NCBI GenBank assembly: GCA_902500785.1 | Contig: CABVRW010000006.1 | Location: 1-35,177, forward strand | Origin: an uncultured Nitrospira sp. | Lineage (GTDB): Bacteria; Nitrospirota; Nitrospiria; Nitrospirales; Nitrospiraceae | Length of the DNA stretch: 35,177 nucleotides | Direction of reading: 5' to 3' | In this document: positions 22,275 through 35,177 of the stretch, in pieces | Numbering within the stretch: position 1 is the first letter of the stretch | Layout: each line of letters begins with the position of its first letter | Notes under the pieces: model-generated | Databases searched by the model: none | Seen by the model: the letters and a program-made list of their open reading frames with translations, nothing else | What the model was told of the DNA's origin: nothing | Position numbers and translations under genes: made by a program

Positions 22275-23618
22275 TTATTCAGCCGCCTCGTACTTCTTGA
22301 GTTTGGCCAACAACGTTTTGTAGTCGATCCGGAGCGTCTGGGCGGCTTTGGTCTTATTGCCGCCACTGGATTCGAGCACGCGTTCGATGTGCAGGCGCTC
22401 GATCACGTCGAGCGGCACGTGTGTCTGGTCATCCAGTGACGGCGGGGATGTTGGGCGAGGGAGCACCAGCCGTACCTCCTCGCGGGTAATCGGTCCGGAG
22501 TTCGGACTCATCAGCGTTATGCGTTCGATCACATTGCGCAATTCGCGGATGTTGCCTGGCCAACGATACGCAGCCAGGTCGTCGAGTGCTTCCGGAGTGA
22601 ACATCCTGGTTGGGGTGCCAGGGATACGAAGATGGTGCAGCATATGATCGGCCAGAGCGGGAAGATCTTCCGGTCGTTCGCGCAACGGTGGCACGCGGAG
22701 CGTCACCGTGTTGATGCGATAGAGCAGGTCATCGCGAAATCGACCTTGCAGCACAAGTTCCTGGATGTCTCGATTCGTGGCGCAGATGATACGAACATCG
22801 GCCTGGAGCGTGCGGGTGCTGCCGACAGGTCGGTATTCGTTCCGGTCGAGAAAGCGCAGTAGACCGACCTGCATGGGTCCAGGCATTTCGCCGATTTCAT
22901 CCAAAAACAGCGTACCGCCCTCGGCGGCGGCGATCAGCCCAGGCTTCGCCTGGGTGGCACCGGTAAATGCGCCTTTTTCGTATCCGAATAGCTCACTCTC
23001 CAACAACTCCCGGCTCACGGCTCCGCAATTCACGGCGATACAGGGTCCGTTGGTCCGACGACTCTGTGCGTGCAGCAGGCGCGCGACCACTTCTTTTCCT
23101 GAGCCTGTTTCTCCTTGAATCAGAACTGAGGCTTGTGACGGCGCGACCTGGGCGATTTGGGTTTTGACTGTCTGCCAGGCTCGGCTGAGTCCATCGACGA
23201 TTGCGTCCTGCCGATACCCGCCGTGGCGCGCGGCCAGATTCTCTCGACGAAGCTCCCGCACCGCGCGGAGTTTGGCCAGCGCGGATTTCACTGCGGCACC
23301 GTCGAACGGAATGTCCTTGATGAGGAAATCCCATGCGCCGTCTTTGATGGCCGCCACAGCGGCTTTGACGTCCCCGTGGCCGGTCAAGACAATCACATCG
23401 ACATCCGGTTGATGCTCCTTCACCCATCGCAAGATTGCCCGGCCGTCGAGCCCGGGCATGCGGAGATCGGTGATCACGCAATCGAAGGAGGCCGTACGAA
23501 GGTACTCAAGGCCTTCTTGCCCGCCGCCGGTCGTCTGCGTGTCGCAGCCTTCTTCCCGGAGCGCCTGTTCCACCACGAGTCGGACAAATTCTTCATCGTC
23601 GATAATGAGGGTGCGCAT
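22275..23618 (-). CDS. Sigma-54-dependent response regulator (NtrC family)
   Basis: A 447-residue activator. The receiver domain (1-120) has the acidic pair D7-D8, phospho-acceptor D51 (ITDLRMPG) and K101. The AAA+ domain (about 140-370) has Walker A GETGSGKE (169-176), the sigma-54 contact loop GAFTGA (216-221) and Walker B GGTLFLDEIGEM. The C-terminal Fis-type helix-turn-helix is HIERVLESSGGNKTKAAQTL. On phosphorylation it should activate sigma-54 promoters; no target promoter of the TGGC-N8-TGC kind was found in the window. It follows the histidine kinase gene by 69 nt, a gap filled by heptamer repeats (23628-23662). Confidence 0.94.
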   Translation of the reverse strand: MRTLIIDDEEFVRLVVEQALREEGCDTQTTGGGQEGLEYLRTASFDCVITDLRMPGLDGRAILRWVKEHQPDVDVIVLTGHGDVKAAVAAIKDGAWDFLIKDIPFDGAAVKSALAKLRAVRELRRENLAARHGGYRQDAIVDGLSRAWQTVKTQIAQVAPSQASVLIQGETGSGKEVVARLLHAQSRRTNGPCIAVNCGAVSRELLESELFGYEKGAFTGATQAKPGLIAAAEGGTLFLDEIGEMPGPMQVGLLRFLDRNEYRPVGSTRTLQADVRIICATNRDIQELVLQGRFRDDLLYRINTVTLRVPPLRERPEDLPALADHMLHHLRIPGTPTRMFTPEALDDLAAYRWPGNIRELRNVIERITLMSPNSGPITREEVRLVLPRPTSPPSLDDQTHVPLDVIERLHIERVLESSGGNKTKAAQTLRIDYKTLLAKLKKYEAAE

Positions 23619-23687: not shown

Positions 23688-25223
23688 TTACAGCATTGGG
23701 AAGGCCAAATAGAAGGTGCTGCCCGCTCCAGGCGTAGATTCCACCCAGACCCGTCCGTCATGTTTGTCCATGACGAGTTTCACGATGGCGAGACCTACAC
23801 CCGTGCCGTCGTATTCCTGCGGACTGTGTAACCGTTCGAAGAGTCCGAAGATTTTGTCGTTCTGAGCGGGATCGAAACCGATGCCGTTATCCTGCACCCA
23901 GAGGATGCGTTCGGTTTCCGTCCGAGTGCCGCTGATGGTGATGGTGGGCGTCGTGGTTCGGCGGGAAAACTTCGCCGCATTGTCGAGCAGGTTTGCGATC
24001 GCCTGACGGATGCTCACCGGTTCACCGTAGAGGTCGGCAAACGGCAGGGCAACCTGGATTTTCGGTCTGGGACCCTGCCACCCGCCAAATTGGTCGACAA
24101 TGAGGGTGGTGATCATCTCCAGAATATTGAAGCGCTGACGGGGCAGGTCCTGTTGCTCCAATCTGGAGTACTTCAGCAGGGCGTCGATCATATGCGTAAG
24201 GCGCAGTGCGGAGCGTCGTATGACATCGATGTGGTGACGGGTCTGCATGTCGCCGCCGTCGACGAATTGTTTTTCCAGCAGGGAGGAGAAGCCCTCGATC
24301 TCCCGCAGCGGACCTTTGAGGTCGTGCGCGACGGAATAGGTGAAGGCTTCAAGCTCTTTCGTCTTCCGGGCGGTCGCGGCCGTCTGCTCGCGCAGGCTTG
24401 TGACCATGGATGAGAGAGAGGCGGCCAATGTGCCCACTTCGTCGCGGCTGGGCCAGGATTCAAATTGCGCGGTCAAGTCGTGATGGGCGACGCGGTCTGC
24501 TGTGACCGAGAGGCGTTGGAGCGGCTTGGCGATCTGTCGGTTGACGGAGAGATAGATCACGGTAATCACCAAGCCGAGGACGGCGACTAAACTCAGCGCA
24601 ATGAGGCGCGCCTGTTGCAGCAGCAGATCTCCTTCCACTTTCATCTCCACGTCGATATCTCGATGGGCGGCGACCAGTTGGTCGAGATTATTCATCAGCT
24701 GCAGAATCAATGCGTCGGCCTTCACGGCGGGCGATGCTGCGGCGCCGGATGTTTGAGGCCAAGTGAGGACAGCCTTCCATAAGAGAGACAAGTCCTGCAG
24801 GAGGTGGTCAATCTGGGCAATAGCGCGATCTTCCTGATCGGCAAGATCCATTCGCTGGTGTTGGGTCAACATGCCGAGGAGAATCGGGTGGGTGCGAGCG
24901 GCATGGGTGGAGCGATAGAGGTCGAGCGAACGGCGGATCCGGTCGGCGTGGCTGTTCAGCTGGGCAAGGGTGTCAGCCTCGTTGGCCCTTGTGATCTGCT
25001 CCAGAAACAGATGCAGCGCGAGGTTCATTTCATAGGTGGAGCGCTGCATGGCGGCCGCCGTCACGATGGCCGGGACGGTGATACGTTTGTGACGGTCGAC
25101 ATAACTGTTGATGCGGCTGAGATAGACGAGGAGGGCGGTGAGGCTCAAGGCCAACAGGCTGAGGAGAACGCCGAAAGAGATGAAAAACTTCTGTCCGATC
25201 GAGCGGTCATGGAGCCAGCGCAT
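23688..25223 (-). CDS. Membrane sensor histidine kinase
   Basis: A 511-residue kinase. A transmembrane segment at 13-34 is followed by a helical periplasmic sensor domain (about 35-205) of four-helix-bundle type and a second transmembrane segment (207-227). Then come HAMP (228-280), the dimerisation/phosphoacceptor domain with H300 (FTYSVAHDLKGPLREIEGFS) and a GHKL ATPase with N-box NLLDNAAKFS, D-box DNGIGFD and GTGVGLAIV. The H-box context resembles phytochrome-type kinases. It is the partner of the sigma-54 regulator downstream. The stimulus is unknown; the sensor domain has no obvious ligand motif. A pair of AGGCCT repeats (25226-25244) sits immediately before the start. Confidence 0.93.
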   Translation of the reverse strand: MRWLHDRSIGQKFFISFGVLLSLLALSLTALLVYLSRINSYVDRHKRITVPAIVTAAAMQRSTYEMNLALHLFLEQITRANEADTLAQLNSHADRIRRSLDLYRSTHAARTHPILLGMLTQHQRMDLADQEDRAIAQIDHLLQDLSLLWKAVLTWPQTSGAAASPAVKADALILQLMNNLDQLVAAHRDIDVEMKVEGDLLLQQARLIALSLVAVLGLVITVIYLSVNRQIAKPLQRLSVTADRVAHHDLTAQFESWPSRDEVGTLAASLSSMVTSLREQTAATARKTKELEAFTYSVAHDLKGPLREIEGFSSLLEKQFVDGGDMQTRHHIDVIRRSALRLTHMIDALLKYSRLEQQDLPRQRFNILEMITTLIVDQFGGWQGPRPKIQVALPFADLYGEPVSIRQAIANLLDNAAKFSRRTTTPTITISGTRTETERILWVQDNGIGFDPAQNDKIFGLFERLHSPQEYDGTGVGLAIVKLVMDKHDGRVWVESTPGAGSTFYLAFPML

Positions 25224-25415: not shown

Positions 25416-26150
25416 TCAGCGCTGCCCCGGCGTTGTTGCGCGATCTCGATCCAATCCAGGCTGCGCAGGCATCGCGGTGAGCGCCGCTCGGTATCGAATC
25501 TGGAGCTCTTCTCGTTGGTCGGGTGCGAAGAGTCGACCGGCGGAACTGACTTGCACGAGATAGTCCTCTGGCTCGAAAGTGGCGTCGAACGCTGCCGAGG
25601 CCTCCGGCACGTTCGGCATCTGGCGATCATACTTGCCGATATCCGGGCCAGGACCATGTCGATCGTGCGCTTCGCTCAACGACAAGTAGAGGATCGGATC
25701 TCGCAGCGACAACCATCCCGTGGTGGTTTCCTCTTCGCCATGCTCCGTGGCATGGCTCACATGAAAATAGGCACGCTCAGACGGGGAGGCTTGCGACAGG
25801 GCGTTGGCCAGCGCCGGTGCCAGAACGGCAATCTCCTCATCCCGAAACCCTCGAGTCTTGTCGGCCTCACCGACGAACAAGCGATGAATCACATTCCGCC
25901 GTTCCCACACTCGGACGCCGCGTAGTAATGTGCCGACTTCGGTCGCGGTCAACGAGGCCGGATGGCTGTTGGCTGTCGAATCAGGATCCTGTTCAAGGCG
26001 GACCATGTTCAAGCCGGATTGATAAATCGTCTTCGTTGGCGAGGGTGGGTGGCCTGCGCAACCGGTGACGACGGTCAATCCTATGAGGATGAACAGGAGT
26101 CGTACGTTCCACCGCTGTATTCGATTCGCTGAATTTCTTGTGTCCGTCAT
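25416..26150 (-). CDS. Lipoprotein of the porin/ModA cassette (left copy)
   Basis: A 244-residue lipoprotein. The signal peptide ends in VTG-C31. The mature part contains TKTIYQSGLNMVRLEQDP, SHPASLTATEVGTLLRGVRV, FRDEEIAVLAPALANALSQASPSERAYF and TTGWLSLRDPILYLSL. These blocks align closely with the lipoprotein at 31116-31817, so the two are paralogs from a cassette duplication. No known family is recognised. Its ATG overlaps the ModA stop (ATGA), indicating translational coupling; the longer open frame to 26291 is therefore not used. It probably sits in the outer membrane near the porin (inference). Confidence 0.8.
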   Translation of the reverse strand: MTDTRNSANRIQRWNVRLLFILIGLTVVTGCAGHPPSPTKTIYQSGLNMVRLEQDPDSTANSHPASLTATEVGTLLRGVRVWERRNVIHRLFVGEADKTRGFRDEEIAVLAPALANALSQASPSERAYFHVSHATEHGEEETTTGWLSLRDPILYLSLSEAHDRHGPGPDIGKYDRQMPNVPEASAAFDATFEPEDYLVQVSSAGRLFAPDQREELQIRYRAALTAMPAQPGLDRDRATTPGQR

Positions 26151-26971
26151 GGTGACACCTCGTATCGTTGAGTGAATCCGGCGTCGGGGGACAGGCGGTC
26201 GAATCCGAATTCTTGCAACAGGGCCTGGATTTGGGGGCTCAGCAGGAACTCGATAAAATCTCCTGCTGCCGACAAGTTCTTGGATGTCCATGCGGCCACG
26301 ACGCCATAACGCACGGGTGTGTGGGATTCGACCGGCGCTGTATCGAGGATGCGGACGCCGGGATTGGAGACGGCATCGGTGCGATAGACCACACCGACTT
26401 CGGCGTCTCCTTTCGTGACCAGCTCCAGCACGGCGCGTGAGTGTTCGCCGAAAACATACTGTGACTTTAGTTTGGGTTCCAGTTTGCTGTATTTCAAAAA
26501 CTGCGCGGCGACTTTTCCCACCGATGAGGTTTTAGGGTCGCCGACCGCGATACGCCGAACGGGAACAGTTTGGAGTTCTTGAATGGATCGAATAGGCGCG
26601 GGGAGCGTCGTTCCCGTAATCAGGACCAGCGAGGTGGCGGCATAGGCGCGCTTGGTGCCGTAGATGATCAGCCCTTTAGTTTCGAGTTGATCGATTTCCT
26701 CAAAGAGGGAAGGAAGAAAGACATCGACCGGCGCACCCTGCTCGATCTGATTGCGGAGCGTTTGGGACGGGCCGTAGATGACCCGCACGTTGATCCCGCG
26801 GTGCTGCGTTTCGAAGAGGGGGAGGATTTTGCGAAGGGCGTCCTTGAGGCTGTTGGCACCCGCGATAGTGAGCGTCTCAGATTGTGCTTGCGCGGCCTGA
26901 GACACCCAAGCAGAACCGAAGAGTGTGCCTAGAAGAAGCGCGAGGCGTATGAAACGGAGTCGTGTCGTCAT
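26147..26971 (-). CDS. modA: ModA-type periplasmic molybdate/oxyanion-binding protein (left copy)
   Basis: A 274-residue periplasmic binding protein. After a Sec signal (to about QAAQAQS) the mature protein runs LTIAGANSLKDALRKILPLFE, VIYGPSQTLRNQIEQGAPVDVFLPS and later FGEHSRAVLELVTKGDAEVGVVYRTDA, the ModA layout. The two ligand-contact loops differ from canonical ModA: AGANSL in place of AASSL, and GPSQ in place of GSSG, so oxyanion specificity may be shifted. AAGGGGAG precedes the ATG. It is the second gene of the porin-ModA-lipoprotein operon, 60 nt after the porin. No permease or ATPase gene follows. Confidence 0.83.
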   Translation of the reverse strand: MTTRLRFIRLALLLGTLFGSAWVSQAAQAQSETLTIAGANSLKDALRKILPLFETQHRGINVRVIYGPSQTLRNQIEQGAPVDVFLPSLFEEIDQLETKGLIIYGTKRAYAATSLVLITGTTLPAPIRSIQELQTVPVRRIAVGDPKTSSVGKVAAQFLKYSKLEPKLKSQYVFGEHSRAVLELVTKGDAEVGVVYRTDAVSNPGVRILDTAPVESHTPVRYGVVAAWTSKNLSAAGDFIEFLLSPQIQALLQEFGFDRLSPDAGFTQRYEVSP

Positions 26972-27031
26972 AGTCTCCCCTTATAAATCACCTTGAACTC
27001 CTCGATGCGCGTGATGGCTGGGCCCAAGATC

Positions 27032-28648
27032 TTAGAAATAGAACTGATACTGCACATTAAGCCGATTTTCCACGAGATCACGACCAAATCCGGGTAGGCT
27101 CTCGAACGGAAATCGATCCGGCGCTCGCCCACCGCTTCCCATGGTGATGTGTGAGTAGTCGATCACGAACCGGTTGTTATAGGTGCCGTCGAAACTATAG
27201 TTGACAGCAGCGCCGAATTCCTTGACCAGGTCATCGACCTGCCGGGTAGAGGGGTCCATGAATCCATATCGCACGGCGAGTTCAAGCTTCCTGGGCACGA
27301 TGTATTTCCCTACCTGAGCGTACCAACCATAGGCCTGGCCGAGGTTGACCGGCGGACCTAAGACGGCGGCGGTGCTGGGGTCGAATGGAATGGTCCCCGA
27401 ATCGGCACTGCGTACCCGCTGGTGCCGGTAATAGCCTTCTGCTTGGAACGACCAGCCATGATACTTTGCGATGAAATCAGCCTCATAGGTCTGGAAATCG
27501 TAGACGCCCCCTCCCAGCAGGCGCCCGTTATAGGCTTTGGTCACACGCTGGCGATACGCTCGATCGACAATGTCTGAGCGAATCGAGCTGAGATAGTTTT
27601 GGGCGGGGTTGTAGGCGTATCCAAATGCGATGGCCATTTGCGGAGTGCGCGAGTTCAGGATGTCTCCTTGCCCATAGCCGGGATTACCCGAGATCTTGTA
27701 CAGCAGCCTGGCGGTGTACATCATTTCGCCGCTTAATATGCGGGTGTCGTAGTTAAACGTTCGACGCTGAGAGGCCGGGATGCTCGCATTGTCAGGCAGC
27801 GCCTGGCTGACGGCAGTGCCTTCTCTCGCGAGATTCGCACCGACTCCTCCCCAGATTCCGAATGCATAGTTGAAGGCGTATTGGTCCTCATCGCTCGAAA
27901 TGCTGATGCCGATGTCGCGGCTGCTCTGTTGGTTGGCTGCAAACGCATTCTGGACGATGAGGTTATCCGCAAACGTCGATGTGGCCATTGAACTGATGGT
28001 GGCGCGATTGAACCAGACGCGCTGTTGACCTGCCTGGATCGTAAACCAGGGAATGTGCCAGGACGAGATGTAGGCATCGAGGAGGCTGGCTCTTCCGCTG
28101 CCCCCTTCCTGGTCCCATGTCGTTTGATCGAACGCCCAGGCAATGTTGTAGCGGAAGTCCGGGTCGAAGGCATAACCCATGAATTGAAGGCGCGCACGAG
28201 GCACGCTGAACTGGTTGGAATCACTCTGCTTACTGACGGCTCGATATTCGACTTGTCCGCCGAGGATTTCAGGATTTCTCGAGTCCCCGATCGTGCCCCA
28301 TGCCCTGTTGTATGCGCTATGTGAATAGCGAACCTGCGTGAGGAGGCGCAGCTTTAGAAAGAACTTATCGCCCACGCGAACGTTCAATCCATTGTTGATG
28401 TCGATGGTGAAGTTCGGCTTGGAGAGCTGTTCTCGTTTTTCAAGGATCTGTAGACCCTTGTCGTATTCCTCTTGGGTGATGATGCCCTTGAGATAGAGAT
28501 ATTTCAGTCCCGGATCCTCGCCAGAATAGTATTCCCACTTTCCGTCCCGCTTGACGAATTGCCCCTCTTCAACGGCCTGCGCAGACCGTGTGGTTCCACC
28601 CACGAAGACCGTCAGCAGGGCAAAAGTGAGAACTGCAATGGCTTTCAT
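27032..28648 (-). CDS. OprO/OprP-type outer membrane porin (left copy)
   Basis: A 538-residue outer membrane beta-barrel. The signal peptide is MKAIAVLTFALLTVFVGG to about SAQA. A short N-terminal helical part (KGIITQEEYDKGLQILEKREQ) is followed by many alternating beta strands and the segment VPRARLQFMGYAFDPDFRYNIAWAF, as in phosphate/pyrophosphate-selective porins. The C-terminus ends in LNVQYQFYF, with a terminal aromatic residue recognised by the BAM machinery. It is the first gene of the minus-strand operon and paralogous to the porin at 31867-33600. A strong promoter lies at 28725-28752. Anion specificity is assumed from the family and the ModA neighbour. Confidence 0.85.
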   Translation of the reverse strand: MKAIAVLTFALLTVFVGGTTRSAQAVEEGQFVKRDGKWEYYSGEDPGLKYLYLKGIITQEEYDKGLQILEKREQLSKPNFTIDINNGLNVRVGDKFFLKLRLLTQVRYSHSAYNRAWGTIGDSRNPEILGGQVEYRAVSKQSDSNQFSVPRARLQFMGYAFDPDFRYNIAWAFDQTTWDQEGGSGRASLLDAYISSWHIPWFTIQAGQQRVWFNRATISSMATSTFADNLIVQNAFAANQQSSRDIGISISSDEDQYAFNYAFGIWGGVGANLAREGTAVSQALPDNASIPASQRRTFNYDTRILSGEMMYTARLLYKISGNPGYGQGDILNSRTPQMAIAFGYAYNPAQNYLSSIRSDIVDRAYRQRVTKAYNGRLLGGGVYDFQTYEADFIAKYHGWSFQAEGYYRHQRVRSADSGTIPFDPSTAAVLGPPVNLGQAYGWYAQVGKYIVPRKLELAVRYGFMDPSTRQVDDLVKEFGAAVNYSFDGTYNNRFVIDYSHITMGSGGRAPDRFPFESLPGFGRDLVENRLNVQYQFYF

Positions 28649-28724
28649 TTTCTCGGCCCCTGTGAGTGTGGATGCAAGTTATCGCTCAAGAAGTATTTTA
28701 TTATCTTAATTCCGATGAGGATTA

Positions 28725-28752
28725 AATATACTAAGTTTAATAATATTGTCAA
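28725..28752 (-). promoter_or_regulatory. Promoter of the porin-ModA-lipoprotein operon
   Basis: On the minus strand TTGACA (28747-28752) and TATATT (28725-28730) are separated by 16 nt inside a strikingly AT-rich block. A predicted start near 28717 leaves about 70 nt of leader before the porin ATG. An inverted repeat TCAACA-N5-TGTTGA (28749-28765) overlaps the -35 box and may be a regulator site. Confidence 0.65.
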
Positions 28753-28881
28753 CAATTAATGTTGAGGAAGCCTATTGATAGTTCACAGACCGCTCGGTTT
28801 TCCGTTTCTAGCCAGGCCAGCATTGAGTGCTGATCAACTGCTTCGGCGAAAACCAGAGGGCAGGCATGGACACGGAGGCCC

Positions 28882-28926
28882 CATGATAGGAATCATGATA
28901 GTTGACACATATTAAACTATCGTGAT
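28882..28926. promoter_or_regulatory. CATGATAG repeats upstream of the XRE-PBP regulator gene
   Basis: CATGATAG occurs at 28882-28889 and 28894-28901, and as CTATCGTG (one mismatch, opposite strand) at 28917-28924. The arms ATCATGATAGTT (28892-28903) and AACTATCGTGAT (28915-28926) form a 12-bp inverted repeat with one mismatch and an 11-nt spacer. A TTGACA (28902-28907) sits between the arms. This looks like an autoregulatory operator. Confidence 0.55.
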
Positions 28927-28939
28927 ACACGCTGGCACC

Positions 28940-30133
28940 ATGAGTCAGAAAAGCAAAGCTGAACCGGCCTCCAATGTCGTCAATTCTCTTCGCGCGTTGC
29001 GCATGGCGAAAGGCCTCTCTCAAGGCCAACTCGCAGATGGGGCCTTGATTACCCGCCAGGCCGTATGCGCCATCGAAGCCGATCAGTATTTGCCGACCAC
29101 GGCGGTCGCCCTGCGGCTCGCCAGTGTGTTGGGATGCCATGTGGAAGACATCTTCAGTCTCAAGACGACCGGCGAATTGATCGAGGGCGAGTGGGTCTGG
29201 CCTGGGATGGTCGTCTCGGCTGTTCAGCCTCGCACGCGGGTCAAGGTGGCCAAGATCGAAGATCGGTTCGTCGTCCGGCCCGTTGCGGCCTTGGGTGAAA
29301 TCTTGAATTACACCGTCCCCGCAGACGGCCTCATTATCGGACCAGCCGGAGCCGGCGGACGTTCAGCCAAGTCCGATCGCCGAGTGCTGGTACGGTTGCT
29401 GCGTGAGCGGCAGATCGTCGAGCGTGAAATTGCGGTCGCAGGGTGTGATCCTGCCATCAATCTCGCGAGCGAGTATCTCCATAGGCATAAGGACACATCG
29501 ACGGTCGTGGGCTGGTCGATGGGAAGCGCGGCGGCGCTGGATGCGCTCAAGCGCAAGGAAGTGCATATGGCGGGGTTGCATATCCTGGATGCGAAGACCG
29601 GGGAATCGAATTTGCCCTATCTCCGACGTCACCTTCAGGGGGATGACTATATTGTCGTGACCTTCGCCGCATGGGAAGAGGGGTTCATCGTACGGGCGGG
29701 TAATCCCAAGTGGATCCGCGGTGTGGATGACCTGGTTCGGCCCAACGTGGTGTTGGTGAACCGTGAAGAGGGTGCCGCCGCCAGAATGTTGCTGGATCAA
29801 CGCCTCCTTGCATTGGGCATCGATGGTTCTGGATTGAAGGGGTACCGTGTGAACGTCAGCTCGCACTTTGAGGTCGCGCGGCATATCGCGGAAGGCCAAG
29901 CCGATGTCGGGATCGGCGTGCGATCGGCTGCGCAGATTTTCGGCCTTGATTTTATCCCTTTGCAACAGGCCCGGTACGACCTGGTACTTCCCAAGCGTTA
30001 TTTGACGACCCACCCGGGTTTGTCCCATCTTCTCGACGCGATCGCCAGCCGACAATTTCGGACCGAGGTCGAGGCCTTGGGAGGCTATGACATGACCGAG
30101 ACGGGGAAAGTGCGAACCCTTCGCGCCGGGTAA
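28940..30133 (+). CDS. XRE regulator fused to a periplasmic-binding-protein-like sensor domain
   Basis: A 397-residue one-component regulator. The N-terminal XRE helix-turn-helix (15-74, LRMAKGLSQGQLADGALITRQAVCAIE) is followed by a linker and a PBP-like domain (about 165-375) with AVAGCDPAINLASEYLHRH, VVGWSMGSAAALDALKRKEVHMAGLHI, NREEGAAARMLLDQ and ADVGIGVRSAAQIFGLDFIPL. This architecture (HTH plus PBP-like domain) resembles regulators found with molybdate or tungstate genes, where the cytoplasmic binding domain senses the oxyanion. It lies between the two cassettes and probably controls both (inference). No ribosome binding site precedes the ATG; a GTG at 28922 is an alternative start. It has no signal peptide. 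Confidence 0.85.
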   Translation: MSQKSKAEPASNVVNSLRALRMAKGLSQGQLADGALITRQAVCAIEADQYLPTTAVALRLASVLGCHVEDIFSLKTTGELIEGEWVWPGMVVSAVQPRTRVKVAKIEDRFVVRPVAALGEILNYTVPADGLIIGPAGAGGRSAKSDRRVLVRLLRERQIVEREIAVAGCDPAINLASEYLHRHKDTSTVVGWSMGSAAALDALKRKEVHMAGLHILDAKTGESNLPYLRRHLQGDDYIVVTFAAWEEGFIVRAGNPKWIRGVDDLVRPNVVLVNREEGAAARMLLDQRLLALGIDGSGLKGYRVNVSSHFEVARHIAEGQADVGIGVRSAAQIFGLDFIPLQQARYDLVLPKRYLTTHPGLSHLLDAIASRQFRTEVEALGGYDMTETGKVRTLRAG

Positions 30134-30194
30134 TCAGGTCGTGACCTGAGATGTTCTGCTGAGGAAAGGATCCCTTGTCGCGATGGAGGACTCG

Positions 30195-31037
30195 ATGAAC
30201 GTGTCGGATTCGGATTGGAGCGTCACTCGCGCCGTCTTGTGTTGCGCAATCGTGTCCCTGGTTGCCTTCAGCATGGGGAGTATACAAGCGGATGCGAGCG
30301 AGCCGTTCGTCATTGCGGCATCGCCGACGCTCAGGGGGCTCTTGGAGCGATTAGGGAGCGGCTTCGAGCAAACGCATCCCGACGTGCGGGTCAAGCTGTA
30401 TTTTGGCTCAGGCTTGGATGTACGGCAAACCATTGCCGCCATGGAAAACAGCATGGTCGGCCAGTATTTCATCGGTAGCGGTCCTCTTCATCTTGTCGCT
30501 CCGGGAGGCGACGAGGTGCTCTCCAGGCTGGAAATGAAGTACTACGTGCTGCCCGGCACCCAGCGACCCTACGCCATGGATCAGCTCGTCGTTGTCGTCC
30601 CGGAATCCTTGGTCGAAGCGCCGGAGTCGCTTGAAGCGATCCGCCGAGGGACGACCAGACTGGCCGTGGCGGATGCGTCGCGAACCCTGCTGGGGACACA
30701 GACGGGTCACATGCTTCGAACGTCCGGTTTAGATGAAGCTCTCACGGGACGATTGGATGTGGCGATCGACTCACATGGAGTGATCGACCATGTCCTGAGC
30801 GGCCAGGCAGATGCCGGAATCATTTACGGCGATCAGGCGGTGACTCTGCAGGAGCGGCTGCGAACCGTGGTGGTCATCGACAAGGGGTACACTCCGACGA
30901 TGCATTCCATGGCGATGGAGCGCTACTGTCCCAACCGGCGGTTGTGCGAAGAGTTCTTGGGCTATATCCAGAGCGCAGAGGGGCAGGCGATCGTGCGGCA
31001 AGCGGGGTATGCGATTCCGGCCGGGAATGTGCGGTAA
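30195..31037 (+). CDS. Divergent ModA-like periplasmic binding protein
   Basis: A 280-residue secreted binding protein. The signal peptide begins MNVSDSDWSVTRAVLCC and is cleaved near QADASE. The mature protein FVIAASPTLRGLLERLGSGFEQTHPDVRVKLYFGSGLDVRQTI has the ModA-like fold, but the ligand loop is AASPT and the expected QGAPFD segment is replaced by MENSMVGQYFIGSGP. The C-terminal half (HGVIDHVLSGQADAGIIYGDQAV, GYTPTMHSMAME) is typical of the class. It is less like ModA than the other two and may bind another anion. GGAGG lies five bases before the ATG at 30195; an upstream ATG (30183) is less likely. It is 61 nt after the regulator gene. Confidence 0.78.
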   Translation: MNVSDSDWSVTRAVLCCAIVSLVAFSMGSIQADASEPFVIAASPTLRGLLERLGSGFEQTHPDVRVKLYFGSGLDVRQTIAAMENSMVGQYFIGSGPLHLVAPGGDEVLSRLEMKYYVLPGTQRPYAMDQLVVVVPESLVEAPESLEAIRRGTTRLAVADASRTLLGTQTGHMLRTSGLDEALTGRLDVAIDSHGVIDHVLSGQADAGIIYGDQAVTLQERLRTVVVIDKGYTPTMHSMAMERYCPNRRLCEEFLGYIQSAEGQAIVRQAGYAIPAGNVR

Positions 31038-31115
31038 AAATTTTGCTTCTTGAGCAAGTATAGACATCTTTATTTTAAGTACTAATGAGTGGTGTGAGGC
31101 GGTGAAGGAGGAGTC

Positions 31116-31817
31116 ATGGGGGAGAGATCAATCGGGAACAGCGGACGTTATGCGGTGACGCTCGCGCTCGTACTGATTTGGAGCATGGGTTCCTTTGCGA
31201 CGGGTTGCGCCAGGCTGCCCTATACGACCAAGACGATACATGCGGACGAGCGGGTGGTCGTGACCGTACAGCGGGAGGTTGAGGCGCGAGCCTATAGCCA
31301 TCCGGTGGAGCTGAGTGCCGCCGACATCGCCGACATCTTGCGGGGTTTTTCCGTGCGTGAACAACAGCGGTTGCCTTTACGCTGGTTCGCCGAGGACGCG
31401 CCTCCGAAGCCGGTGTTTCGTGAGGACGAACTTCAGGTCTTGGCACCGGGCCTCGCGGAAGCGCTGCAACAGCTTGGATCGAACGAACGCGCCCATTTTG
31501 AGGTACGGGCACCGGGTTTTAACCCGCGCGAATCCAGAGACACCACTGCGGGATGGGTGGCGGTTCAGGGTCCCTATTTCTACGTCACTCTCGAACAGTT
31601 TCATCGCCAGGTGCCGATTCACAACAACGACCTCTATGACATCAACTACCCGGCCGTTCCGCCCCCGCCGCGTGACTACATCCTTTATTTCGAGCCGGGG
31701 CGGTTTTGGGTCGAGGATCAGACGGGCACTCGGGCGGTGCAGTATCGCCGGTTGCTCAATCTAGCCGACGTGGGAGGAGCCGGTCCGAGATCCGTTCCGC
31801 CCGTGGGCGCCCCGTAA
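31116..31817 (+). CDS. Lipoprotein of the porin/ModA cassette (right copy)
   Basis: A 233-residue lipoprotein with lipobox ATG-C31, cysteine at the same position as in the left copy. It shares with that copy TKTI, a SHP-LSA-DI--ILRGF block, FREDELQVLAPGLAEALQQLGSNERAHF and TAGWVAVQGPYFYVTL. The C-terminal part diverges (PPPPRDYILYFEPGRFWVED). A strong AAGGAGGAG precedes the ATG. It lies 78 nt after the divergent ModA-like gene and 49 nt before the porin start. The family is unnamed as far as I can tell; consistent pairing with porin and ModA suggests a shared task in the envelope. Confidence 0.8.
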   Translation: MGERSIGNSGRYAVTLALVLIWSMGSFATGCARLPYTTKTIHADERVVVTVQREVEARAYSHPVELSAADIADILRGFSVREQQRLPLRWFAEDAPPKPVFREDELQVLAPGLAEALQQLGSNERAHFEVRAPGFNPRESRDTTAGWVAVQGPYFYVTLEQFHRQVPIHNNDLYDINYPAVPPPPRDYILYFEPGRFWVEDQTGTRAVQYRRLLNLADVGGAGPRSVPPVGAP

Positions 31818-31866
31818 CAATTGTCGTTCATACGCACGCATGGTCTTGCTGAACAATGAGGAGCTC

Positions 31867-33600
31867 ATGGATCTGGTAGGTCGAGGCGCCAGAGCGCGCT
31901 CGTTTGCATCTTGGATTCGCAGAGCCGGCTTGTGGATGCTCTGTTGTTCTATCGTGCTGCACGCCGTGCTCTCCATTCCTGTGTGGGCCGCAGACACCGG
32001 CGCGCTGGTCTTGAAAAATGGACAGTATGAATTTGTAGAGAGTATGGACCCCGCTACCAAGTTGCTGCTCGAACGTGCCGCGAAGCAGGGTGTCATCACG
32101 CCCGAAGAATACGCGCAGGTCGTCAAGGAGTCGCAGGAGCGAAGTTATCTGCTCCAGCCCAGCTTCAAAGCCTGGTACGATCGTGGATTCAATCTGTCGA
32201 TGAACGATAATGCCTTTGCGCTCAAAATACGGTTCCGGACCCAATTGCGATACACCCAACGCTTCCGCAACGATGCCTGGCGCAATCCGGGCGATGCGAA
32301 AAACTTTCCCGAGCTGCTCGGCGTGTTTGGAGACTATCGGGCGAACCGATCGGACGAAACATCGTCCTCCTTCAACGTGCGGCGCGCCCGCCTGTATTTC
32401 ATGGGGCATCTGTTCAATCCAGATTTTAAGTATTACATTCAGTTGGCGGGAGAGACGGCGGAGAATTCTCAGACGCCGGGATCGCTTCGACTCCTGGACA
32501 TGCAGTTCATGAGCACGCATTTCCCGCTCTTTAACGTCCAGATCGGTCAATATAAAGTCTTTTTCAATCGGGCGCAGATCAATTCGACGGCCTCCATGCA
32601 GTTTGCGGAGCGTTCATTGGTCATGGATGCCTTCACGGCGAGCGGGCTTGACCGCCGAGACATCGGCATCACGTTCATGAACGATGAGGAACTCTACCCC
32701 GTCAATTACTATGTGGGAGTGTTCAATGGCGCTGGGCCAAGCTTCAACCGCCTGGGCGGGTTTTATAGCGAGCAGCCGACCCAAGATTGCGGAGGAGGGA
32801 CGACCGGCCAAGCTCCGTTTCCTTCGCCGACGAATTGTCCCACTCCACAGCGGAATATCAACGCAAACTTGAGGAACGACGTCAATCAGCTCATGTACAG
32901 CGCTCGTCTGAACTGGAACATCATGGGTCGGCCCGGCTATGGAGAGGGTGATCTGGCCTATTCAGAAACCCCTCAAATGGCGGTCGGTGGGGGCATCGCC
33001 TACAACCCGTCCGTGAATACCAGCTCTAACAGTTCCTACATCGGAACCGATTTGGCCAACCTCAATTTCAGACGACAGATCTCCGCGTTCGGCAACGGCA
33101 GACAACTCGGTTGGGGGATCGTGGACTATCTGACTTGGGCGGTAGATGGAGTGTTCAAGTACCGAGGGTTTTCGTTACAAGGAGAGTTCTATTACAAGAA
33201 CGTCGACCGTCACGAGAAGGGATTGCCTTGCATGAATCTCGCGTGCTCCGAGACGGCGCCGACCTATCTCGGTAACGCGACCGGGTGGTATGTGCAATCC
33301 GGTTACTATGTGGTTCCGCGCTACCTGGAACTCGCCGGAAGGTTTTCGTACTGGGATCCGGACACCAATGCCGGCGGTGATTTGGTGTACCAGACCGATG
33401 CTTCGATCAACTGGTTTCTCAATGGCACGTATGACCATCAGATCATGATGACATACAGCAACACTCAGATGGGAACGGGTGGGTATGCGATCGGGAGAAG
33501 TAATCCTCTGCCTCCACTTTCAGGATCGGTTCCACTCGATGCTAAAGGTGGCACGCTCATTGAGAACATGATCCGAGTACAGTATCAAATGTTCTTTTAA
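31867..33600 (+). CDS. OprO/OprP-type outer membrane porin (right copy)
   Basis: A 577-residue outer membrane beta-barrel with a signal peptide ending near IPVWAADT. The N-terminal part has the same helix-plus-linker (AAKQGVITPEEYAQVVKESQER) and strand pattern as the left copy, including VRRARLYFMGHLFNPDFKYYIQLA, and the C-terminus IRVQYQMFF ends in an aromatic residue. An insertion with two cysteines (TQDCGGGTTG, PTNCPT) may be an external loop held by a disulfide. The frame is open from 31840, but the ATG at 31867 has GAGGAG just upstream, though with short spacing. It is followed 160 nt later by the canonical ModA gene. Confidence 0.85.
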   Translation: MDLVGRGARARSFASWIRRAGLWMLCCSIVLHAVLSIPVWAADTGALVLKNGQYEFVESMDPATKLLLERAAKQGVITPEEYAQVVKESQERSYLLQPSFKAWYDRGFNLSMNDNAFALKIRFRTQLRYTQRFRNDAWRNPGDAKNFPELLGVFGDYRANRSDETSSSFNVRRARLYFMGHLFNPDFKYYIQLAGETAENSQTPGSLRLLDMQFMSTHFPLFNVQIGQYKVFFNRAQINSTASMQFAERSLVMDAFTASGLDRRDIGITFMNDEELYPVNYYVGVFNGAGPSFNRLGGFYSEQPTQDCGGGTTGQAPFPSPTNCPTPQRNINANLRNDVNQLMYSARLNWNIMGRPGYGEGDLAYSETPQMAVGGGIAYNPSVNTSSNSSYIGTDLANLNFRRQISAFGNGRQLGWGIVDYLTWAVDGVFKYRGFSLQGEFYYKNVDRHEKGLPCMNLACSETAPTYLGNATGWYVQSGYYVVPRYLELAGRFSYWDPDTNAGGDLVYQTDASINWFLNGTYDHQIMMTYSNTQMGTGGYAIGRSNPLPPLSGSVPLDAKGGTLIENMIRVQYQMFF

Positions 33601-33760
33601 CGGAGAGGAACTGCGAGGGCCTTGGGTCACCGGTTTGTGCGATGGCTCTTGGAGCCATCATCTTGACTCGTCGTTCGATGCAATCAACCGAATTCGTGCC
33701 CGCACATATCCGGAAATGAGGTGGCGTCCTCGCCGCCTCGGGAGGAAAGGAGTATCGCCA

Positions 33761-34561
33761 GTGCTTCTGATACAACATGGACGGATGCTGTGGATGGCGG
33801 GCTGGATGTTGGCGCTTGCCATGACGGTGGTGTGCGGCGGACGGTTCTCTGCTGCTCAGGCTGAGGAGGTGCTCGTTGCGGCCGCGTCCGATCTCAACTT
33901 CGCCATGAAGGAGTTGAGTGCCGAATATGAACAACAAAGCGGTCATCATGTGAAACTCTCATTGGGTTCATCCGGAAATTTTTATGCACAACTCCAGCAA
34001 GGCGCGCCGTTTGATCTGTATTTTTCGGCAGACATCGGCTATCCAAGAAAGCTGGAGGAAGCCGGTCTTACGGTGCCGGGAACGCTCTATCGGTATGCGG
34101 TCGGCCGAATCGTGCTCTGGGCTCCGAAGGCCTCGTCCCTTGATGTGTCCAAAGGCCTGATGGTGTTGCGTGAAGCGACAATACGAAAAATTTCCATTGC
34201 CAATCCGAAACATGCGCCCTATGGCCGTGCGGCGGTAGCGGCGATGGAGCATGCACAGGTCTATGCGGAGGTCAAACAGCGGCTGGTGCTGGGGGAGAAC
34301 GTCTCACAGGCGGCGCAGTTCATCGAATCCGGGGCCTGCGATGTCGGGATTATCGCGCTGTCTCTGGCGATGGCTCCAGCGATGAAGACCGCCGGGATCT
34401 ACTGGGAAATTCCCGCGGATTATCATCCGCCATTGGAGCAGGGCGCGATCATTATGAAACAGTCCAAGAATCAGGAGGTCGCCCGCCAATTTCTGGAATT
34501 CATGAAAAGCCCTCGAGGACAGGAGATCATGACGAGGTATGGATTCACGTTGCCGAACTAG
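33761..34561 (+). CDS. modA: Molybdate-binding protein ModA (canonical copy)
   Basis: A 266-residue periplasmic binding protein with all ModA signatures: EVLVAAASDLNFAMKELSAEYE, LSLGSSGNFYAQLQQGAPFDLYFSAD, the APYGRAA segment, QRLVLGENVSQAAQFIESGACDVGIIALS and the C-terminal FLEFMKSPRGQEIMTRYGF. It binds molybdate and tungstate for an ABC importer. The start is best set at GTG 33761, with AAAGGAG eight bases upstream, rather than at the earlier ATG at 33635, which would add a long unlikely extension; the signal peptide then reads through SAAQAEE. Its 3' end overlaps the next lipoprotein gene. No ModB or ModC gene follows in the window. Confidence 0.9.
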   Translation: MLLIQHGRMLWMAGWMLALAMTVVCGGRFSAAQAEEVLVAAASDLNFAMKELSAEYEQQSGHHVKLSLGSSGNFYAQLQQGAPFDLYFSADIGYPRKLEEAGLTVPGTLYRYAVGRIVLWAPKASSLDVSKGLMVLREATIRKISIANPKHAPYGRAAVAAMEHAQVYAEVKQRLVLGENVSQAAQFIESGACDVGIIALSLAMAPAMKTAGIYWEIPADYHPPLEQGAIIMKQSKNQEVARQFLEFMKSPRGQEIMTRYGFTLPN

Positions 34562-34916
34562 TCGCTGGGCATTGGCCCTATGTTCCGCTGTCGTGATGGT
34601 GACATCCGGTTGTTCCCAGGCGGTCTTGATGAGCCAGGAATCGGACCATGGTGGCGTGGTGACCTACGTCTTTAAGCAGGACCGCGGCGGTCCGATGGGA
34701 TCGCCATATCGAAAACCTGCGCTGGATATGATCCACGCGAAATGCACCGCGGGGTCGCGGCTCATCCGAGAGGGGGAGGTCAAGGGGTATACCAGTGTCG
34801 GCATGGGGATCATAGAAGGAACGGAAGATGAGGAACGGGGGCGACGGTGGGGGATTAAGTTTGAATGCAGGGGTGGTGGAAGGGGCGGCGAACAGGCTGA
34901 AACTCTTCAACCGTAG
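34539..34916 (+). CDS. Small lipoprotein, unknown function
   Basis: A 125-residue lipoprotein that starts inside the 3' end of modA (23-nt overlap, different frame). The signal peptide ends VTSG-C25. The mature domain has MIHAKCTAGSRLIREGEVKGYTSVGMGIIEG and a closing WGIKFECRGGG, with two cysteines that could pair. This Cys / EGEV / W-I-F-C pattern is seen in other small envelope proteins without known function. Overlap with modA suggests co-expression. The last 15 residues are low-complexity. Confidence 0.65.
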   Translation: MDSRCRTSRWALALCSAVVMVTSGCSQAVLMSQESDHGGVVTYVFKQDRGGPMGSPYRKPALDMIHAKCTAGSRLIREGEVKGYTSVGMGIIEGTEDEERGRRWGIKFECRGGGRGGEQAETLQP

Positions 34917-34932
34917 CAGAAGGGGACAGAGG

Positions 34933-35132
34933 CTGTAGCTCAATCCAGGAAATTAGTTCCAAGGCACGGTGAGGAAAAGCACCGAGGGGCAAGCCATGGC
35001 CGAGGCCGTCGTGAAGGTCGGAATCTGGAATTTGTGGCCACCACCGAAGAGTCCGTCAAAAGCATGGGGCTCAAGATGAACGGCACGGTCACTGTCGTTA
35101 TGAAGGCCACGGAATTCATGATCGGGCAATAA
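34933..35132 (+). pseudogene. Decayed Mop (molbindin, TOBE-domain) gene
   Basis: Reading from 34933 gives L-stop-L-N-P-G-N-stop, then FQGTVRKSTEGQAMAEAVVK (34957 on), then V-G. After a one-base frameshift near 35026 it continues NLEFVATTEESVKSMGLKMN and GTVTVVMKATEFMIGQ to a TAA at 35130-35132. Together these match a complete Mop/TOBE oxyanion-binding domain of about 68 residues. The expected opening MKLSARNQFQG has become CTG, TAG, ..., TAG by changes explainable as single substitutions. Two stops, a lost start and a frameshift point to inactivation rather than one sequencing error. Mop proteins bind molybdate or tungstate. Confidence 0.7.
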
Positions 35133-35177
35133 TGCACGCGGAGTTGACCTTCGCGGGCGGTGTTCTTGACAATACGC

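Follow-up and report, generated by a model that had tools for sequence, protein, structure and literature searches.

A candidate Nitrospira oxyanion-uptake locus with a ModABC-type molybdate/tungstate operon and a parallel, probably sulfur-side module

The DNA studied here, a window of 35,177 nucleotides whose nearest named relatives place it in Nitrospira, as an earlier note on the sequence had supposed, appears to hold an oxyanion-uptake locus in which a ModABC-type molybdate/tungstate operon (cassette 2) is accompanied by a parallel module for the sulfur side (cassette 1). We consider this overall reading likely. Nitrite oxidoreductase requires molybdenum, and the route by which molybdate passes the outer membrane of Nitrospira seems to have been undescribed before.

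Gene content and conservation of the locus

The earlier note had described two sets of porin, ModA-type protein, and lipoprotein, together with a third binding protein, around a regulator with XRE and PBP-like domains, and all of these components are present:

22275..23618, minus strand: sigma54-activating response regulator (PF00158, PF00072, PF02954)
23688..25223, minus strand: histidine kinase with HAMP, HisKA, and HATPase domains (PF00672, PF00512, PF02518)
25416..26150, minus strand: lipo1, the cassette 1 lipoprotein (lipobox TGC-A)
26147..26971, minus strand: ModA1, ModA-fold binding protein (TIGR01256, 152.9 bits; cut-off, 62.5)
27032..28648, minus strand: porin1, outer-membrane barrel (37% identity to porin2, E 8e-112)
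28892..28926, no strand: palindrome ATCATGATAGTT-N11-AACTATCGTGAT, each arm 12 bases long, at the start of the regulator, a weak operator candidate
28922..30133, plus strand: one-component regulator with XRE helix-turn-helix (PF01381) and PBP_like domain (PF12727, 201.9 bits)
30183..31037, plus strand: PBP3, divergent SBP_bac_11 protein (PF13531, 100.7 bits; under the ModA cut-off)
31116..31817, plus strand: lipo2, the cassette 2 lipoprotein (33% identity to lipo1, E 6e-29)
31840..33600, plus strand: porin2, OprP/OprO-like porin (PF07396, 53 bits; cut-off, 20.9)
33635..34561, plus strand: ModA2, putative periplasmic molybdate-binding protein (TIGR01256, 211.5 bits; cut-off, 62.5)
34539..34916, plus strand: lipo3, small lipoprotein encoded after ModA2 and before Mop/modB, in the same place in many congeners
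34937..35132, plus strand: frameshifted Mop (TOBE) gene adjoining the assembly gap, aligned to Mop of Nitrospira RBC_NOB1
35133..35177, plus strand: leader to modB; the window stops here at a scaffold gap, beyond which the remainder of modB and the modC gene occupy C6:35278-36590 of the same contig

Within each arm the genes overlap or are separated by at most 78 bases, an operon-like spacing. The open reading frame of lipo1 as mechanically listed begins too early, the probable start being a later ATG at 26150; likewise, a later ATG at 28940 is the likely start of the regulator. ModA1 and ModA2 are paralogues with 27% identity (E 2e-28). No family assignment was found for lipo3.

Cassette 2, with porin2 and ModA2, is most likely a molybdate/tungstate operon, its ligands being assigned from homology and gene neighborhood. 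The closest solved relative of ModA2 is ModA of P. aeruginosa (7t4z, E 6e-52), whose ligand residues are N33, T60, Y141, and I168 (PMC9171197). The pocket of ModA2 (D/S/Y/I-V) aligns with these N/T/Y/I positions, a likeness that is suggestive only of molybdate/tungstate binding. In PBP3 the ligand-site positions are not kept, and the protein shows neither the ModA1 nor the ModA2 pocket pattern. AlphaFold predicts 16 barrel strands for porin2, though with modest confidence (pLDDT 63.7), and the best matches of the model in the PDB are OprP (2o4v, E 9e-15) and OprO (4rjw, E about 1e-14). Porin2 is thus modelled as an OprP-like 16-strand barrel and a candidate anion porin. It shares PF07396 and its best fold match with OprP and OprO of P. 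aeruginosa, which are phosphate and polyphosphate porins, but differs from them by low identity, by an N-terminal helical segment, and by neighbors for molybdate and sulfur anions rather than phosphate.

The regulator lacks the TOBE/molbindin sensor domain of the ModE type and has PF12727 and the XRE helix-turn-helix instead. Its best NCBIfam match is the MoeA-PBP fusion model PRK14498, with a score below that model's cut-off. Some MoeA proteins carry PF12727 as well (PMC10102598), for example at the C terminus of D. vulgaris DVU0951; the same sensor-like domain is joined there to MoeA, whereas in the Nitrospira locus it is joined to a DNA-binding domain and forms a regulator. These fusions are consistent with molybdenum or tungsten as the ligand of the regulator. 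In most congeners cassette 1 and the regulator have a common control region, which hints that one regulator may balance molybdate against a sulfur anion. The palindrome at 28892-28926 was dropped as a candidate site of the regulator; it is present in the genome of the window and, in weaker form, in one congener only.

The layout lipo1-ModA1-porin1 on one side and regulator-PBP3-lipo2-porin2-ModA2-(lipo3)-(Mop)-modB-modC on the other is kept in most of the 29 congener regions, with cassette 1 sometimes displaced. Among 33 evaluable regulator loci of the family, the regulator is followed by an outer-membrane barrel in 32, by a substrate-binding protein (SBP) in 32, and by modB/modC in 31. Genomes without lipo1 and lipo2 have the same regulator followed by an AlgE-type barrel (PF13372), modA, modB, and modC, and genes for a porin and Sbp or SsuA often flank the regulator on its opposite side. 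The lipoprotein accompanies the OprP-like barrel in 21 of 24 cases and the AlgE-type barrel in none of 8. Since the type of barrel varies and the lipoprotein occurs only with the OprP-like version, the dedicated barrel is the constant feature of the locus. The AlgE-type replacement, lying directly between regulator and modA, was seen in many family members (L153:11789-13366 and L269-L286).

The lipoprotein family and its genomic neighbors

The lipoprotein family has no match in Pfam or NCBIfam and no relative by sequence among solved structures in the PDB. The AlphaFold model of lipo1 is of moderate confidence (pLDDT 78); a Foldseek search with it found nothing better than E 0.2, and the best hit of VIA-align (Z 4.1) was a designed protein. 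Of the 147 genomes sampled within the order, 145 encode the family, as do 7 genomes from further orders of its class; it was detected in none of the sampled members of the phylum outside this class, to which Nitrospira belongs. The locus offers a clear guilt-by-association clue to this family, which was found in one bacterial class only.

In an alignment of 40 sequences the lipobox cysteine of lipo1 (C31) is invariant and the following alanine (A32) nearly so. According to the E. coli +2 rule, an alanine at position +2 after the lipobox cysteine points to the outer membrane; on the assumption that this rule is valid in Nitrospira, the nearly invariant alanine predicts an outer-membrane location. 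The lipoproteins are therefore probably anchored in the outer membrane, where they would assist the porin, either while it is being assembled or by keeping the binding protein close at hand.

The earlier note had expected the lipoprotein to recur together with porin and ModA, and this linkage was indeed seen in the loci of relatives. Its test by searching for homologues outside such loci gave a divided answer. In the lipo1, lipo2, and PstS-linked clades, all 97 copies have an SBP gene no more than three genes away, and 88 of the 97 have a porin gene nearby as well. In the most widespread clade, of the C57 type, neither an SBP nor a porin occurs within three genes in any of 31 copies. As the sample was drawn mostly from high-scoring matches, these fractions describe the clades named and not the whole family. 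A role of the lipoprotein as a family-wide partner specific for ModA was rejected, as the protein is present in multiple copies, many of them alone, and is absent from the mod operons with an AlgE-type barrel.

The solitary copies, together with the lack of the lipoprotein in the AlgE-type mod operons and its spread into other families of the class, would also fit a general function in the cell envelope outside transport, with the gene merely riding in these operons. The constant company of an SBP in the three linked clades, mostly with a porin, argues against such a function, which we regard as a serious alternative, if clearly the less probable one. We prefer a transport-associated, outer-membrane lipoprotein and hypothesize that it docks between porin and binding protein. 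Extending this idea is more speculative: the Nitrospiria-specific lipoprotein might be a shared adaptor that pairs a dedicated porin with its binding protein in three parallel versions, one each for the oxyanions of molybdenum, sulfur, and phosphorus, providing a channelled route from the outer membrane to the ABC transporter, with one XRE-PBP regulator tying the molybdate and sulfur branches together. We put this forward tentatively and think it rather unlikely in its full form.

Further members of the family were noted in the genome of the window. The C57-type copy (L026:7588-8316, contig C57) and its relatives lie near a beta-propeller protein (BNR/YCF48-like) and an unidentified open reading frame of 169 amino acids, and these neighbors are conserved and unrelated to transport. 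Two longer paralogues with an apparent coiled-coil C terminus are found near pilus/aroB-type genes (L027:7029-7991, contig C24) and mutY/miaB-type genes (L028:7464-8510, contig C12). A third trio on contig C74 (L029:7140-10595) consists of a PstS-like protein (PF12849), a lipoprotein of the same family, and a Porin_O_P protein, and lies beside another gap of 100 N; the same trio also occurs at L201, L206, and L210.

Cassette 1 and the sulfur-compound genes

Downstream of cassette 1 and on the same strand, the window carries the histidine kinase and then the sigma54-type response regulator, a pair that is also found there in many relatives; the kinase gene follows lipo1 in 30 of 52 evaluable loci. 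Of 52 evaluable copies of lipo1, 36 have Sbp/Cys genes (23 copies) or Ssu genes (13 copies) downstream on the same strand; 47 of the 52 have either of these or a histidine kinase gene. The identity of Sbp, CysT, CysA, and SsuA was checked with NCBIfam on representative proteins. In N. defluvii (FP929003) porin1, ModA1, and lipo1 are followed first by a short gene, then by Sbp and by the two genes of the kinase pair; in the genome of the window neither the short gene nor Sbp stands between lipo1 and the histidine kinase. The known systems for sulfate (Sbp-CysTWA) and aliphatic sulfonates (SsuABC) thus directly follow cassette 1 in relatives but are not adjacent to it in this genome, where Sbp-CysT-like and CysW-CysA-like genes are located on contigs C42 and C83.

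The pocket of ModA1 reads S/S/V/S/Y and is conserved in 53 orthologues, the V and S residues being invariant. Its difference from the ModA2 pocket is evidence, though not proof, that the two proteins bind different ligands. In addition, cassette 1 is located apart from the mod operon in some genomes, for example beside Sbp-CysT-CysA in congener G016. From these data we conclude that the two cassettes are unlikely to be copies serving one and the same anion and that cassette 1 probably serves a sulfur oxyanion, its ligand being deduced from homology and gene neighborhood. No Pfam family scored above its cut-off for porin1 alone.

The earlier note had assigned both cassettes to molybdate, as part of a route for oxyanions from the outer membrane to the periplasm. 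The route is supported, but the assignment of cassette 1 to molybdate is not and was demoted, in view of the sulfate and sulfonate ABC genes (Sbp-CysTWA or SsuABC) that follow it in relatives and of the differing ModA1 pocket. Corrected for the presence of the pump, this assignment would make cassette 1 an additional high-affinity set that captures the anion for the same ModBC pump and is kept because of the large molybdenum need of nitrite oxidoreductase. Several observations agree with it: ModA1 scores far above the ModA cut-off and may bind molybdate too, cassette 1 lies on the control region of the regulator in most congeners, and neither the genome of the window nor RBC_NOB1 has sulfur genes directly after cassette 1. 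Against the sulfur genes after most evaluable copies, the fixed pocket, and the displaced cassettes, however, we judge a joint molybdate function to be unlikely, and we retain a sulfur-side function for cassette 1.

Two additional ModA1-like proteins were found without a cassette, at L030:7153-7980 (contig C65) and L031:2886-3725 (contig C93), with 42% and 38% identity to ModA1, respectively; the latter gene is followed by a Tll0287-like gene.

The scaffold gap, the pump genes, and the proposed uptake route

The earlier note had seen neither modB nor modC, an absence that proved to be an artefact of the window's edge. The last base of the window is C6:35177, and a run of 100 N, a scaffold gap, occupies C6:35178-35277. 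Beyond it come the C-terminal end of ModB (~77 residues), which is in frame and almost the same in sequence as the RBC_NOB1 copy, and an intact gene (C6:35496-36590) for a ModC/WtpC-type ATPase of 364 amino acids with ABC_tran and TOBE domains. A window edge on an assembly gap can therefore produce a false absence of genes. The ATPase scored best with the model of the tungstate ATPase WtpC (277.4 bits; cut-off, 440) and reached 249.5 bits with the ModC equivalog TIGR02142 (cut-off, 285); both scores are below the respective cut-offs, and the protein may serve molybdate or tungstate.

The closest relative among the genomes compared, Nitrospira RBC_NOB1, shows the uninterrupted order regulator-PBP3-lipoprotein-porin-ModA-small lipoprotein-Mop-modB-modC, with a full-length modB (TIGR02141, 230.7 bits; cut-off, 182.6) and an intact Mop of 67 amino acids (TIGR00638, 62 bits; cut-off, 55). 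Alignment with this protein revealed that the Mop gene of the window is frameshifted within the final 240 bases; the sequence covered by the earlier note reached 35132 because of this gene. The frameshifts are most simply explained by an assembly error at the contig end. TIGR02141 was found above its cut-off in 25 of 29 congeners, the exceptions being the genome of the window (G000) and three assemblies of lower completeness or heavier contamination, and in all 40 other family members tested. A true decay of modB and Mop that left the binding proteins as orphans would fit the frameshifts, the cut modB, and the failure to find a full-length modB elsewhere in this assembly, but it is very improbable. 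The break falls exactly on the gap, and no frameshift is more than about 310 bases away from it; what is left of modB keeps its reading frame, modC is undamaged, and modB is otherwise missing only from congeners whose assemblies are incomplete or contaminated.

In the route that we propose, molybdate or tungstate would cross the outer membrane through porin2 and be captured by ModA2 in the periplasm; ModB together with the ModC/WtpC-type ATPase would then pump the anion into the cell, where Mop would bind it. The XRE-PBP regulator probably senses cytoplasmic molybdate or tungstate and would control the molybdate operon and possibly both sides. Cassette 1 would most likely act on a sulfur oxyanion or in the interplay between molybdate and sulfate, with its transporter genes having been lost in the genome of the window. 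Like modABC of E. coli with Mop/molbindin, the locus has homologues of ModA, the ATPase, and Mop in one operon, together with ModB, of which the C-terminal part is present in this assembly. The E. coli operon, in contrast, has no gene for an outer-membrane porin or a lipoprotein, of which the Nitrospira locus has both, and is controlled by ModE rather than by an XRE-PBP_like protein; the Nitrospira ATPase is as close to WtpC as to ModC.

A literature search, in which most subscription journals were not covered, revealed no link between Nitrospira, molybdate, and a porin, and no description of an outer-membrane barrel in a mod operon combined with an XRE-PBP regulator, a linked sulfur module, and a class-specific lipoprotein; papers dealing with metal regulons of delta-proteobacteria or with Geobacter had no relevant connection of porin and molybdate. 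With the exception of the lipoprotein the component families are all known, and it is their combination that is apparently undescribed. A dedicated porin in a modABC operon, conserved throughout the family, and a matching, probably sulfur-side module beside the same regulator make competition between molybdate and sulfate in nitrifiers directly testable.

Variations of the pump region were also noted among congeners. Several of them (L105, L111, L113, and L115) have the modB-modC unit twice after ModA2, and in one congener a fusion protein of HTH_17 and TOBE (L120:2122-2553), possibly a second molybdate-responsive regulator, adjoins modB.
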